Source: Alphaproteobacteria bacterium (GTDB lineage Bacteria; Pseudomonadota; Alphaproteobacteria; Ferrovibrionales; Ferrovibrionaceae). From it: 64,000 bases of DNA. Shown one piece after another: positions 4,053 to 41,869 of this stretch (within the stretch, counting starts at the first letter, position 1; each line of letters begins with the position of its first letter). The notes beneath the pieces are model-generated. The model worked only from the letters and a program-made list of their open reading frames with translations, was not told the DNA's origin and did not search any database. Where the stretch lies: the NCBI GenBank assembly GCA_017307375.1, contig JAFKFH010000003.1:496001-560000 (forward strand), read 5' to 3'. The position numbers and the translations under genes were made by a program.

Positions 4053-5102
4053 ATGAAGACCAACCCCGGCAACTTCTTCGAGGATTTCCGCCTCGGCCAG
4101 GACATCGTCCATGCCACGCCGCGCACGGTGACGGCGGGCGACGTCGCGCTCTACACCGCTCTTTACGGGCCGCGCTTCGCCCTGCAAAGCTCGGACGACT
4201 TCGCCCGCGCGCTGGGCCTGCCGGCCGCGCCGGTCGACGACCTCCTGGCCTTCCACGTCGTCTTCGGCAAGACCGTGCCGGACATCTCGCTCAATGCCGT
4301 CGCCAATCTCGGCTATGCCGACGTGCGCTGGCTGAAGTCGGTCTATCCCGGCGACACGCTCGCCACCCGCTCGACCGTGATCGGGCTGCGCGAGAACGCC
4401 AATCGCAAGTCGGGCATCGTCTATGTCCGCTCGACCGGCACCAACCAGCGCGGCGAAACCGTGCTCGACTACGTCCGCTGGGTGATGGTGCGCAAGGCGC
4501 GCGAAGCGGCGCCGACGCCCGAGACGGTCGTGCCCGACCTGCCCGAGCGCGTGGCGCCCGACCGTCTCGTCGTGCCCGCCGGGCTGGCCTTCGCCGGCTA
4601 CGACTATGAACTGGCCGGCCAGCCCCATGGCTGGGACGACTACGAGGTGGCCGAGAAGATCGATCATGTCGACGGCATGACGATCGAGGAGGCCGAGCAC
4701 ATGCTGGCCACCCGCCTCTACCAGAACACCGCCAAGGTCCATTTCAACCAGCTGCAGCAGGGCGCCTCGCCGCTCGGCCGCCGGCTGATCTACGGCGGCC
4801 ACGTCATCAGCCTGGCCCGCGCCCTGACCTTCAACGGCCTGGCCAATGCCGTGTCGGTGCTGGCGATCAACGGCGGCCGCCACGTCAACCCGACGCTTGC
4901 CGGCCACACCATCCATGCCTGGTCCGAGGTGGTCGAGAAGGCGGAACTGCCGGGCCGCAGCGATGCCGGCGCGCTGCGCCTGCGCACCATCGCGACCAAA
5001 GACCAGCCCTGCGCGGCCTTTCCCGATCGCGACGCCGCCGGCAAATATCCCGACTCCGTCGTCCTGGATCTCGACTACTGGGTGCTGATGCCGCGTCGCT
5101 GA
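4053..5102 (+). CDS. mch: mesaconyl-CoA hydratase-like MaoC-family dehydratase
   Basis: Predicted double-hotdog enzyme, 349 residues, that reversibly hydrates mesaconyl-CoA to beta-methylmalyl-CoA, a step of the ethylmalonyl-CoA pathway for acetate/C2 assimilation. The sequence reads as a full-length Mch: NFFEDFRLGQDIVHATPRTV at the start, the first hotdog with YTALYGPRFALQSS, and a second with VHFNQLQQ and GRRLIYGGHVISLARAL. The ATG at 4053 follows GGGGCAC. It lies 11 bp after the CitE-like gene and is probably cotranscribed with it. Its 3' end overlaps the convergent P-loop gene by 28 bp. Other pathway genes (ccr, ecm) are not in the window. Confidence 0.85.
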   Translation: MKTNPGNFFEDFRLGQDIVHATPRTVTAGDVALYTALYGPRFALQSSDDFARALGLPAAPVDDLLAFHVVFGKTVPDISLNAVANLGYADVRWLKSVYPGDTLATRSTVIGLRENANRKSGIVYVRSTGTNQRGETVLDYVRWVMVRKAREAAPTPETVVPDLPERVAPDRLVVPAGLAFAGYDYELAGQPHGWDDYEVAEKIDHVDGMTIEEAEHMLATRLYQNTAKVHFNQLQQGASPLGRRLIYGGHVISLARALTFNGLANAVSVLAINGGRHVNPTLAGHTIHAWSEVVEKAELPGRSDAGALRLRTIATKDQPCAAFPDRDAAGKYPDSVVLDLDYWVLMPRR

Positions 5103-5617
5103 TCGGCATCGCCGCCTGCCGGAAGGCCGTCGAGCCAGGCGGCGACCCCGGCCGGCGTCGTGAAGGTCAGCCGCGTGCCGGCGAAACCCGCGACGATGTC
5201 GTGCATCTTCGGCCGGTGGCTGCGGCGGTAGTTCCAGACATATTTCAGGAATGGCCAGTCGAACCGCTCGGGGCAGCCCGGCGACATCTCGGCGCGGGTG
5301 CGGCCATAACCCGACAGCGTCCGGCGCAGCACGCGCAGCAGGCAGACCGGCATGGCCAGATCGAGGAAGATCAGCGTGTCGGCGCGCGCCAGCCGCAGCT
5401 CCAGCGTGCCGCCGTACTGGCCGTCGATGATCCAGCTTTCGCCCGCGGCCAGCCCCGCGACCCGCGCGCGCCAGTCGTCGCGCGGCGGCTCGACCCAGCC
5501 CGGGCGCCAATATTCCCGGTCGAGATGGACGACCGGCAGGCCGGTCCGTTCCCCCAGCCGGCGCGCCAGCGTCGACTTGCCCGACCCGGAGCAGCCGATG
5601 ATGACGACGCGCCGCAC
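5075..5617 (-). CDS. P-loop kinase-like protein (topology-modulation/adenylate-kinase-like)
   Basis: Small cytoplasmic NTP-binding protein of 180 residues. It has a Walker A GCSGSGKST at residues 8-16, then LPVVHLDREYWRPGW and the WIIDGQYGGTLELRL segment typical of the FlaR/topology-modulation family of small kinase-like proteins. The biochemical role of this family is poorly known. It starts 3 bp after the amn stop, so it is the last gene of the rsmB-amn unit. It converges on mch with a 28-bp overlap. Confidence 0.75.
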   Translation of the reverse strand: MRRVVIIGCSGSGKSTLARRLGERTGLPVVHLDREYWRPGWVEPPRDDWRARVAGLAAGESWIIDGQYGGTLELRLARADTLIFLDLAMPVCLLRVLRRTLSGYGRTRAEMSPGCPERFDWPFLKYVWNYRRSHRPKMHDIVAGFAGTRLTFTTPAGVAAWLDGLPAGGDADQRRGISTQ

Positions 5618-38422: not shown

Positions 38423-38955
38423 TCAGCGGGGCAGGGCACAGGTACCGTCGGCACAACCACCGTCGACCATTGCCGTGCCGGCGGCCGTCACCGGCGCGGC
38501 CAGCGCCTCGGCGATGCGCGCGCCGACCAGGATGTCGTCCTCGACGCCGAAGGTCTGGTGCAGAATCCGGCCGTCGCGGCCGATCAGCACCGAGCTCGGC
38601 GTGCCCTGCAGTCCATAGCGTTGCATGGTCACCGGCACCGGGTGATCGGCGCGGGGCTGGTCGACGCCGATCGGCGCGGTCAGGCGGTATTCATGGATGA
38701 AGGCTTCCAGCGTTGCCGGCGGCATCGCCGCGTGATGCTCGAACACGGTGTGCAGCCCGATGACCTGCAGGTCGCTGCGGGCGAAGATCCGCTCGACGCG
38801 CTGGGCTTGCGGAATGCCGCGCAGCACGCAGCCCGGGCACAGCAGCTGGAACGTGTGGATGAAGACGAGCGCCCGCGCAGCGCGGCGAGATCGAGCGGCC
38901 GGGGGGTGTTGAACCAGCGGGTGACGGCCAGATCGGGGGCATGCATGGTCGTCAC
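38423..38955 (-). pseudogene. redoxin/thioredoxin-like protein with a frameshift
   Basis: The protein starts MHAPDLAVTRWFNTPRPLDL, then AALRGR in one frame. It continues LVFIHTFQLLCPGCVLRGIP in a second frame, with the active-site CPGC and a redoxin core (VIGLHTVFEHHAAM, YGLQGTPSSVLIGRDG). One base is missing near 38866-38872 relative to an intact redoxin. Start GTG at 38955 or ATG at 38946. It may be a real null mutation or a base-call error. The C-terminus has two extra cysteines, GGCADGTC. Shares the operon with the upstream 22-codon ORF (GTGA overlap). Confidence 0.75.
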
Positions 38956-39853: not shown

Positions 39854-40504
39854 CTATCCGTTGACGAATGCGGTCCAGGTGGCAGCCCGGGCCGCCGGAT
39901 CGGCGGTTTCGTGCTCGCGGCAATCGACCCTGAGATCTCGAGGGCCGAAGGCCGCGTCGACGAAGGCGCAGTGATGCGGCGTCGCCGCATCGTCGTGAAC
40001 ATGTGGCCGGAAATGGCGGCAGGTGGCGCACATCCGCTGGATCGGGATGGCACCGGTCTCCTGCAGGTTGCGGATGACCTTGACCAGCGACAGCAGCAGC
40101 CTTTCCTGCTCGGCCCGGTCGAGACCCGCCACCGCGGCGACCGTGGCGCCGGGGGCGTCGTAAGTCCGATGCAGCAAGGCCAGGCCGGACTCGGTGATGG
40201 TCACGCCGACCGCCCGGCGGTCGGCCTGGGAGGCCGCGCGGCGGACATGGCCCTTGCGTTCCAGTGCGGATATCGCATCGGTCGCCGTCGGCTGGGTGAC
40301 CCCGAGATCGGCGGCGATCTCCTTGACCCGCATCGCGACCGGGTCGCGGCCGGCGACGAAACGCAGCACATGCAGTTGCGTGGGAGTGAGCCCGCCGACC
40401 TCGGCGGCCTGCCATTCGTCCGCCCGCATCGCCGTGGCAATGCGGGCCAGCCCATCGGCGATGCGGGCGGGCAATGGGCGGGAGGCGGGGGCGTCGGTGC
40501 TCAT
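39854..40504 (-). CDS. MarR-family regulator with a Cys/His-rich C-terminal extension
   Basis: 216 residues. Winged helix about 38-115: LTPTQLHVLRFVAGRDPVAM, then VKEIAADLGVTQPTATDAIS and RRAVGVTITESGLALL. Residues 156-200 add RMCATCRHFRPHVH, then HHCAFVDAAF and LRVDCREHE: four Cys (159, 162, 179, 195) and several His. Such a tail could bind zinc or an iron-sulfur cluster, so the protein may be a redox or metal sensor (inference). The next genes are a secreted protein and a redoxin. A palindromic site sits 9 bp upstream. Confidence 0.88.
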   Translation of the reverse strand: MSTDAPASRPLPARIADGLARIATAMRADEWQAAEVGGLTPTQLHVLRFVAGRDPVAMRVKEIAADLGVTQPTATDAISALERKGHVRRAASQADRRAVGVTITESGLALLHRTYDAPGATVAAVAGLDRAEQERLLLSLVKVIRNLQETGAIPIQRMCATCRHFRPHVHDDAATPHHCAFVDAAFGPRDLRVDCREHETADPAARAATWTAFVNG

Positions 40505-40512
40505 GGGGCGTA

Positions 40513-40531
40513 TATATAGGAGTACTATATA
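40513..40531. promoter_or_regulatory. palindromic MarR-type operator
   Basis: TATATAG, 5-nt spacer, CTATATA, perfect arms, 8 bp upstream of the MarR ATG. The AT-rich dyad may also include the promoter -10 of this operon. Autoregulation is likely. Confidence 0.65.
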
Positions 40532-40583
40532 ATTATCAACACTGCGGACCCTAGTGCTGGAGCTGTAGGTAGAGTGACCAAAA

Positions 40584-40618: not shown

Positions 40619-41869
40619 GTGACAAAAACGGGTCGCGACAAGGCGGTCCGAGAGGGGCTGCCGATACAGCCACGGAGCGGGAAGACAGTGGATCGGCGCA
40701 GCTTCTTTGCGGCGGGGGCGACGGCTGCGGCTGTCGGAACGACGGGGATCACGGTGGCCCGCGCGACCGGCCTGCCGGCATCGTCGGGGGGCATGTCGAT
40801 CGTCGATTTCGGGGCGGTCGGCGACGGTGTCACCGACGACAGCGCGGCTTTCAACGCCGCGCTGAAGCAGGCGGCCAGCTACGGCCGGGTGATCTTCGTG
40901 CCGGGGCTGACCTATGCGATCGCCCGGCCGATCGTCTTTTCGTCGACGCAGGATGCCGCGCGGTCGTGGGGGCTGCGCTGCGACGGGGCCACCCTGGTCT
41001 CGCGCCTCGCCGGCAGTGCCGACGTCGTGACGCTGATCGCCAACAATACCGTGCGCTATTTCCGCCTGACCGGGGGGCTGTCGATCGTCGGGTCGGGCCA
41101 GGACGGCAACGGCCTGCGGCTGTTCGCCCCGGGCGGCACCCCCTGCCTCTACAATATGCTGATCGAGGGCCTGTCGGTCGAACGGGTCGGCGGGCACGGC
41201 CTGCTGTTCGAGGGCAACGTCTTCGAGGGCACGGTCCAGAACAGCTACTTCCAGGATTGCGGCGGGAACGGCGCAACCTTCGCCCATTCGTGCGGCGGCG
41301 TGGTCTCGGCGATCAACGTCAACGGTTGCTATTTCAGCCAGAACGGCGGCCACGGCCTGGCGGCGACCAATTTCGACGGCGAATACGGCGGCACCACCGA
41401 CGTGCGCGTCCATGGCGGCTATTGCCGCGACAACCATGGCTACGGCTTCTACTACAACAACGGCACCGGCGCCGGTGCGATCGAGCAGGTCGGGTTCGAG
41501 AACAACTGCCGGGGCCTCGCCCCCGGCGACCCGAACGGGGCCCATGTCTACGGCCTGTCCTCGATGTATCTGCGCAACTGCTCGGGCCACAACATGCATG
41601 GCGGCGCCACCTACCTGCTGCGCGGCTGGTTCTCCGGTCTGACCGTGCTGGAAGGCTGTGCCCAGTCGGCTGCCGGCGCGGCGGCGGCCACCGGGGCCAC
41701 GCGGCTGGTCCAGATCAACGGCAATGCGCAGGGCCATGTGCGGATGCGCAACTGCAACGGCGGCATCGACGTCGCGCCGGGCTCGGCCTGCAGCTGGGCG
41801 GCGGAAAGCTCGGCCGGGCCGACGCCGCGCGGCATGCTGAGCTACGCGAGCGCGCTGGCGAGCGCCTGA
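40619..41869 (+). CDS. Tat-exported right-handed beta-helix protein (pectate-lyase/GH28-like)
   Basis: 416 residues, GTG start at 40619. A Tat signal is visible: KTVDRRSFFAAGATAAAVGT (Arg26-Arg27). The mature part starts with the family segment MSIVDFGAVGDGVTDDSAAF, seen in pectate lyases, GH28 enzymes and phage-type depolymerases. A long right-handed beta-helix follows with repeated Asn/Gly turns (NSYFQDCGGNGATF, NGCYFSQNGGHGL, GGYCRDNHGYGFYYNN). A catalytic role on polysaccharide is plausible, but no definite catalytic triad is identified. Stands alone on the plus strand, divergent from the MarR gene. Confidence 0.82.
   Translation: MTKTGRDKAVREGLPIQPRSGKTVDRRSFFAAGATAAAVGTTGITVARATGLPASSGGMSIVDFGAVGDGVTDDSAAFNAALKQAASYGRVIFVPGLTYAIARPIVFSSTQDAARSWGLRCDGATLVSRLAGSADVVTLIANNTVRYFRLTGGLSIVGSGQDGNGLRLFAPGGTPCLYNMLIEGLSVERVGGHGLLFEGNVFEGTVQNSYFQDCGGNGATFAHSCGGVVSAINVNGCYFSQNGGHGLAATNFDGEYGGTTDVRVHGGYCRDNHGYGFYYNNGTGAGAIEQVGFENNCRGLAPGDPNGAHVYGLSSMYLRNCSGHNMHGGATYLLRGWFSGLTVLEGCAQSAAGAAAATGATRLVQINGNAQGHVRMRNCNGGIDVAPGSACSWAAESSAGPTPRGMLSYASALASA

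Follow-up and report, generated by a model that had tools for sequence, protein, structure and literature searches.

A MarR-family regulator with a conserved four-cysteine tail and a predicted operator in its own promoter

Regulators of the MarR family rank with the commonest in bacteria, and the signal is known for few of them. A locus from an alphaproteobacterium of the Ferrovibrionaceae raises this question in a particular form: what would be sensed by a MarR-family protein that carries four cysteines in a C-terminal extension, and on which DNA would it act? The locus lies in a stretch of 64,000 nucleotides (contig JAFKFH010000003.1, positions 496,001 to 560,000), hereafter called the window, in which all coordinates of the locus are given.

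Results

The regulator combines a MarR core with a four-cysteine tail

The gene (39854..40504, minus strand, ATG start) encodes a protein of 216 residues, P0001, which was assigned to the MarR family from its open reading frame, its Pfam matches and a structural model with a winged-helix core. Both Pfam models were matched above their cut-offs (MarR, PF01047, 47.2 bits for a cut-off of 24.6; MarR_2, PF12802, 52.2 bits for a cut-off of 27), with matches spanning residues 38-99, which bears out the MarR regulator that a first-pass annotation had proposed here. In the AlphaFold model, which had an overall mean of 77.0, the MarR core was confident. P0001 scored 25.6 bits with the OhrR model, far under its cut-off of 200. 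Its PADLOC matches were low-scoring (at most 23.7 bits) and restricted to the winged helix, and a defence-system reading was rejected on these grounds.

The first-pass annotation had drawn attention to C159, C162, C179 and C195 in the C-terminal extension, together with histidines. The four cysteines are present as described and are the only ones of the protein, none standing before C159; their codons (39920..40030, minus strand) spell the motif C-x2-C-x16-C-x15-C, recognized from the sequence and from its conservation in relatives. A full-length tblastn search of plasmids with the regulator gave 139 records, of which we examined 13 of the first 40 listed and 5 weaker ones. When the 13 plasmid records were aligned with the genome relative L039 and the window (15 rows of diverse relatives), the tail cysteines made up 4 of just 12 invariant columns, and all four were also present in 5/5 of the weaker plasmid relatives examined. 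The cysteines, on whose conservation the proposal of a metal or iron-sulfur site had been made to depend, are thus conserved across relatives. The histidines fared less uniformly: H177 and H198 were at least 90% conserved in the relatives' alignment, and the remaining tail histidines were variable.

The spacing of the cysteines was determined on 95 sequences (94 loci and the window). A genome scan had given 389 relatives among 410 candidates, of which the best 80 were retained. The four-cysteine motif was found in 95/95 sequences, a figure that informs on spacing and cannot test the presence of the tail in relatives, because the patterns used in the genome scan were themselves tail peptides; C-x2-C-x16-C-x15-C was exact in 91 of them and replaced by a close variant in the remaining 4, spacing variants occurring in deeper branches. 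In a separate full-length search, 29 loci (L010-L038) comprised 18 with a four-cysteine tail, 8 with none and 3 with no match, and in the 8 tail-less loci the alignment with P0001 ended no later than residue 147. A profile of the tail matched 15/240 genomes of the class at E ≤1e-4. Among 14 loci other than the window from these genomes, the four tail cysteines were found by pattern in 13; the one without them, L149, has the same regulator gene as L176.

Searches with domain and structure profiles found no Fe-S or Zn domain and no solved structure for the tail. Against Pfam, the tails gave five family names, each as a single-member match with E between 0.02 and 0.2. We took the spacing of the tail cysteines to resemble that of HiPIP. 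Kinship with HiPIP was not supported, as PF01355 matched neither P0001 at E ≤1 nor any of 23 tails at E ≤10, and hhalign of the tail with a thin three-row HiPIP alignment gave a probability of 2%. Residues 161-200 had block means of 36-43 in the AlphaFold model, with no confident structure. Such a low-confidence model would fit folding that depends on a cofactor, of which it is no proof.

We infer that the four tail cysteines would hold a redox-labile cofactor, and we give an Fe-S cluster about an even chance of being this cofactor. It is possible, if somewhat doubtful, that they form a Zn-thiolate site, and reversible disulfides are rather improbable. A zinc site could act in several ways: it might fold the tail while the MarR pocket senses a small ligand, it might lose its metal to a thiol oxidant, or zinc might itself be the signal. 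Four cysteines with nearby conserved histidines can bind zinc, the tail is not predicted to fold without a cofactor, and zinc-dependent MarR proteins exist according to the accessible part of a review on MarR regulators of plant-associated bacteria (PMC10458429). The model for the zinc-dependent AdcR (NCBIfam NF038251), however, gave 17.8 bits with P0001, far under its cut-off of 175, and we consider the zinc reading unlikely.

The cysteines might also need no cofactor and respond through disulfide formation or reaction with electrophiles, as they do in OhrR or DUF24-type MarR proteins. OhrR, DUF24-type and AdcR-type proteins are redox- or metal-responsive MarR repressors, as proposed for P0001, and the thiol switches among MarR proteins are well known (PMC10458429, accessible part). 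Yet the same source places the sensor residues of all three types in the core, cysteines in the case of OhrR and DUF24-type sensors, whereas the cysteines of P0001 are in the tail and its core has none. Furthermore, four cysteines at near-fixed spacing (91/95 identical) exceed what a thiol switch needs. A cofactor-free mechanism thus appears quite improbable, and a redox-labile cofactor held by the tail is the reading that we retain.

A palindrome in the promoter is conserved in relatives

An AT-rich dyad had been noticed just upstream of the gene, and we found it at 40513-40531 (TATATAG-GAGTA-CTATATA). What relatives have kept of it is a core (40516-40528) that reads ATAGTACTCCTAT on the gene strand and ATAGGAGTACTAT on the plus strand, and has one mismatch with the family consensus TAGGANTCCTA. 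Operators of the MarR family are palindromic and about 16-20 bp long. The consensus was found exactly in 87/95 MarR upstream regions and with at most one mismatch in 90/95 (the one-mismatch sites being those of the window, L048 and L050), and the palindrome carries extended A/T-rich arms in these regions. It was absent from 5/95 upstream regions, those of L043 (Thermus), L045, L047 (Paraburkholderia), L051 (Hymenobacter) and L124, where the MarR gene begins at the contig edge. By comparison, an exact copy stood in 41/4750 segments of 113 nt drawn at random from the same loci, a control that could include the MarR promoters themselves. When the half-site letters were rearranged in the 29 other ways, no palindrome turned up in any of the 95 upstream regions, and the median elsewhere was 0. 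The recurrence of the exact palindrome in relatives, combined with the failure of the other arrangements, led us to reject a chance palindrome.

Elsewhere in these loci, which total 1.286 Mb, there were 4 further exact copies for 0.52 expected. All 4 precede split-off parts of the module described below: trx in L042 and L049, and, in L045, TlpA-SOD-marR and the exported-protein gene. In 20/20 genomes WTAGGANTCCTAW occurred once per genome, as against 3/20 for the reversed control, and the single copy is the marR site because the loci from these genomes have the site before marR. The window's genome contained 4 places within one mismatch of the consensus and 13 for the reversed control pattern. 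The window site is therefore unexceptional within its own genome, and its weight derives from the relatives.

Putative promoter boxes, identified by consensus match only, are a -35 box TTGATA (40534..40539, minus strand) and, 17 nt after it, a -10 box TATATA (40511..40516, minus strand). In this TTGATA-17-TATATA arrangement of the window, ATAGTACTCCTAT overlaps the spacer. The -10 box lies only 6 nt before the ATG of marR, so that transcription probably begins at or very close to the start codon. Of the operator sites, 72/88 were accompanied by -35 and -10 boxes with no more than 4 mismatches in the pair, compared with 41/2000 random anchors that were unmatched for AT content, and the -35 box started most often 11 nt before the operator site. 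The operator site occupies the -35/-10 spacer and reaches the -10 box, and binding in this spacer normally blocks a promoter. Its recurrence upstream of MarR genes and its promoter placement make the palindrome a conserved predicted operator suited to repression. Some MarR proteins act as activators, as the accessible part of the review also states (PMC10458429), and the regulator might activate its operon; a site that fills the spacer and meets the -10 box argues against this, and we hold activation to be very improbable. The predicted operator and the operon that follows it are well supported at the level of sequence comparison; repression from this site would be the likely consequence.

The regulator heads a redox gene module

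The first-pass annotation had described the neighbours of the regulator, a secreted protein and a redoxin, as fitting a redox or metal response. Both genes are there and belong to a conserved redox module. The first encodes an exported protein of 238 residues, P0002 (39099..39815, minus strand), with a signal-like N-terminus by eye. The second, for a TlpA-like redoxin (38423..38955, minus strand), lies in two frames, with a break at about 38869-38878 in the assembled sequence; the homologues from L039 and L040 align to it as two pieces in different frames. The window retains only marR, the exported protein and the redoxin. With one mismatch in its operator and a broken redoxin, the window's copy of the module may be decaying. 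The divergent gene at 40619-41866 (plus strand), which has Pfam matches to Pect-lyase_RHGA_epim and Beta_helix, did not recur beside the module in the clustering of neighbours.

We counted module members as tblastn matches to queries picked from annotated loci. The 80 genome loci (the best 80 of 389) contained the exported protein in 66 cases, the TlpA-like redoxin in 58, a MOSC protein in 41, a glutamine amidotransferase in 32, an AhpD-like protein in 29, catalase in 8 (two at 24-25% identity), an Rrf2 protein in 6 and a globin in 4. The leading partners were the same when genes were clustered without supervision. The AhpD-like protein scores above the TIGR01926 cut-off; the MOSC protein has its top score with 6-hydroxyaminopurine reductase, under the cut-off of that model, and contains a YiiM 3-alpha domain. 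These comparisons support a conserved redox operon in which marR comes first, followed by the exported protein and often by an AhpD-like protein, a redoxin, a glutamine amidotransferase and a YiiM-like MOSC protein. No zinc transport gene was recognized among the frequent neighbours, a list that comes from chosen queries and clusters, and redox neighbours do not point to zinc supply, which argues further against a zinc site. The same neighbours would suit cysteines that react without a cofactor.

The exported protein is the most conserved partner of the module. A homologue was found in 76/100 stretches (99 loci, L039-L137, and the window), including stretches from Deinococcus, Hymenobacter and Phaeobacter. 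Identity to the window was 52-73% for the exported protein (29 relatives) and 48-58% for the regulator (39 relatives); the exported protein is thus more conserved than the regulator. P0002 had no match in Pfam or NCBIfam at E ≤1, and its four PDB profile matches (E of about 0.5) were judged chance-like. Its AlphaFold model was beta-rich and of low confidence (mean pLDDT 56.9). Foldseek gave no match to this model at E ≤0.001, the best (E 0.063) being chance-like. The best VIA-align result on Foldseek's own rows, obtained with the same low-confidence model, was 2ivf_C, the ethylbenzene dehydrogenase gamma subunit, which has a haem-binding fold (Z 3.9, rmsd 4.8, 149 aligned); the similarity is too weak for a fold claim. 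In the Hymenobacter locus (L051:2664-4334), the exported-protein homologue lies with genes for catalase, a hexameric tyrosine-coordinated haem protein and a protoglobin, and the edge of that stretch carries flavohaemoglobin and Rrf2 genes.

Some modules adjoin genes for nitric oxide or oxidant defence

In L054, a single strand carries in succession marR and the genes for the exported protein, an AhpD-like protein, a redoxin, an amidotransferase, a MOSC protein and a flavohaemoglobin, which passes the NCBIfam cut-off for Hmp. Hmp was found beside the module in 4/50 loci (L054, L069, L081 and L082), which represent few lineages, for about 0.05 expected by chance, according to our arithmetic, given the size of the stretches; only 17/50 of the genomes had an Hmp match at all (21 matches, two of them partial). 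An NsrR-like Rrf2 gene, which scored 128.8, below the NsrR cut-off of 182, stood beside 5 of the same 50 loci (L079, L081, L082, L083 and L114) and somewhere in 44 of the same 50 genomes. Both Hmp and Rrf2 genes were lacking from the available stretch of most of the 80 genome loci (best 80 of 389), and the positive ones were from few lineages. Distant copies adjoin genes for protoglobin, globin, truncated haemoglobin, NnrS or cytochrome P460, and other copies adjoin catalase or superoxide dismutase genes.

Taken together, the Hmp, NsrR-like and globin neighbours and the catalase and superoxide dismutase neighbours point to a redox or nitrosative switch, with nitric oxide taking the largest single share. 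We would tentatively name nitric oxide as the single most likely signal, followed by peroxide or thiol-reactive electrophiles as the next likeliest.

A second branch has another palindrome

A second branch of the regulators is found on plasmids of Phaeobacter, Leisingera, Agarilytica, Enterobacter and Lelliottia and in some genomes. Its recognition-helix sequence differs, and so does its palindrome, TATCGANTCGATA, which often occurs twice between marR and a divergent exported-protein gene. Within 2 mismatches, TATCGANTCGATA was found in 12/15 of these gaps (16 gaps less L174, at a contig edge), as against 38/3000 random segments of the same loci; the gaps of L177, L137 and L176 had no such site. 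Since recognition helix and palindrome both differ in this branch, protein and site have changed together, which supports direct recognition of the palindrome by the cysteine-tailed MarR proteins.

Perfect copies of TATCGANTCGATA were seen upstream of cysteine-tailed MarR genes at L134:4872-4985, L224:6137 and L225:6775; the L134 copy, on an IncHI2A plasmid from Enterobacter hormaechei, is next to a glutaredoxin-domain gene. The Polaromonas plasmid L137 encodes two different cysteine-tailed MarR proteins (87-695 and 4890-5540), one of them beside an aconitate hydratase gene. In another branch, such regulators adjoin the gene for a sigma-70-type factor of about 300 residues, presumably RpoH-like (L217, L219 and L223), or AAA and VWA_CoxE genes (L217 and L221). 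The tailed regulators that adjoin sigma-70-type or AAA/VWA genes include some from genomes of the window's own family, and the cysteine tail may serve additional stress regulons.

Discussion

The mechanism that we propose is autorepression by a protein whose cysteine site responds to redox conditions or NO, a reading that we regard as probable when the exact nature of the cofactor and of the signal is left aside. P0001 would be a dimeric MarR repressor that acts chiefly, or exclusively, on its own promoter, with the palindrome TAGGANTCCTA placed between the -35 and -10 boxes of the operon promoter and ATAGGANTCCTAT as the expected target. Bound to the palindrome, the cofactor-loaded dimer would block RNA polymerase. 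Nitric oxide or an oxidant would damage the cysteine site, release the dimer and allow expression of the operon, the products of which, the exported protein in the envelope and the redoxin, MOSC, AhpD-like and amidotransferase proteins inside the cell, would detoxify or repair.

The nearest analogue in mode of action is ArnR of Corynebacterium. ArnR is a wHTH regulator with a [4Fe-4S] cluster that represses hmp and nar genes, and its DNA binding is abolished by NO (PMC12343034). Like P0001, it joins a winged helix of the MarR/ArsR type to C-terminal cysteines (PMC12343034), and some relatives of P0001 have hmp in the operon. They differ in that ArnR has three conserved cysteines, at positions 179, 193 and 223 (C-x13-C-x29-C), with no fourth (PMC12343034), whereas P0001 has four in a C-x2-C-x16-C-x15-C arrangement. 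The mode proposed here would also resemble that of NsrR and other Rrf2 proteins, in which the cluster is lost or nitrosylated and the repressor released; P0001, however, matches MarR and not Rrf2, and the NsrR-like genes are separate neighbours. It is like the MarR family in its winged-helix core, which scores above the cut-offs, and in the palindromic predicted operator in its own promoter, but its four-cysteine tail was covered by none of the family models searched.

In the open literature, in which subscription journals are mostly outside coverage, we found no description of the tail, the operator or the gene set among the papers listed, and the seven papers containing one of the 11-base operator strings were unrelated judging by title. 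The term 'Fe-S' does not occur in the accessible part of the review on MarR regulators (PMC10458429). What is known here is the MarR family; the cysteine tail, the specific operator and the gene set are without a description that we could find. One may speculate, with considerable reserve, that they mark a hitherto undescribed class of MarR repressors that sense through an Fe-S cluster in a cysteine tail, spread over Proteobacteria, Cyanobacteria, Deinococcota and Bacteroidota, with the branch-specific operators TAGGANTCCTA and TATCGANTCGATA, governing a new module of nitrosative and oxidative defence whose signature exported protein might have a haem-binding fold.

For the MarR family, the finding offers a subfamily that is recognizable by its cysteine tail, whose operator hardly varies (one copy per genome in the 20 genomes searched) and whose targets recur, so that a single reporter and a single purified protein would suffice to look for the signal. 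It further draws attention to a family of exported proteins that is more conserved than its regulator and travels with genes for defence against nitric oxide and peroxide.
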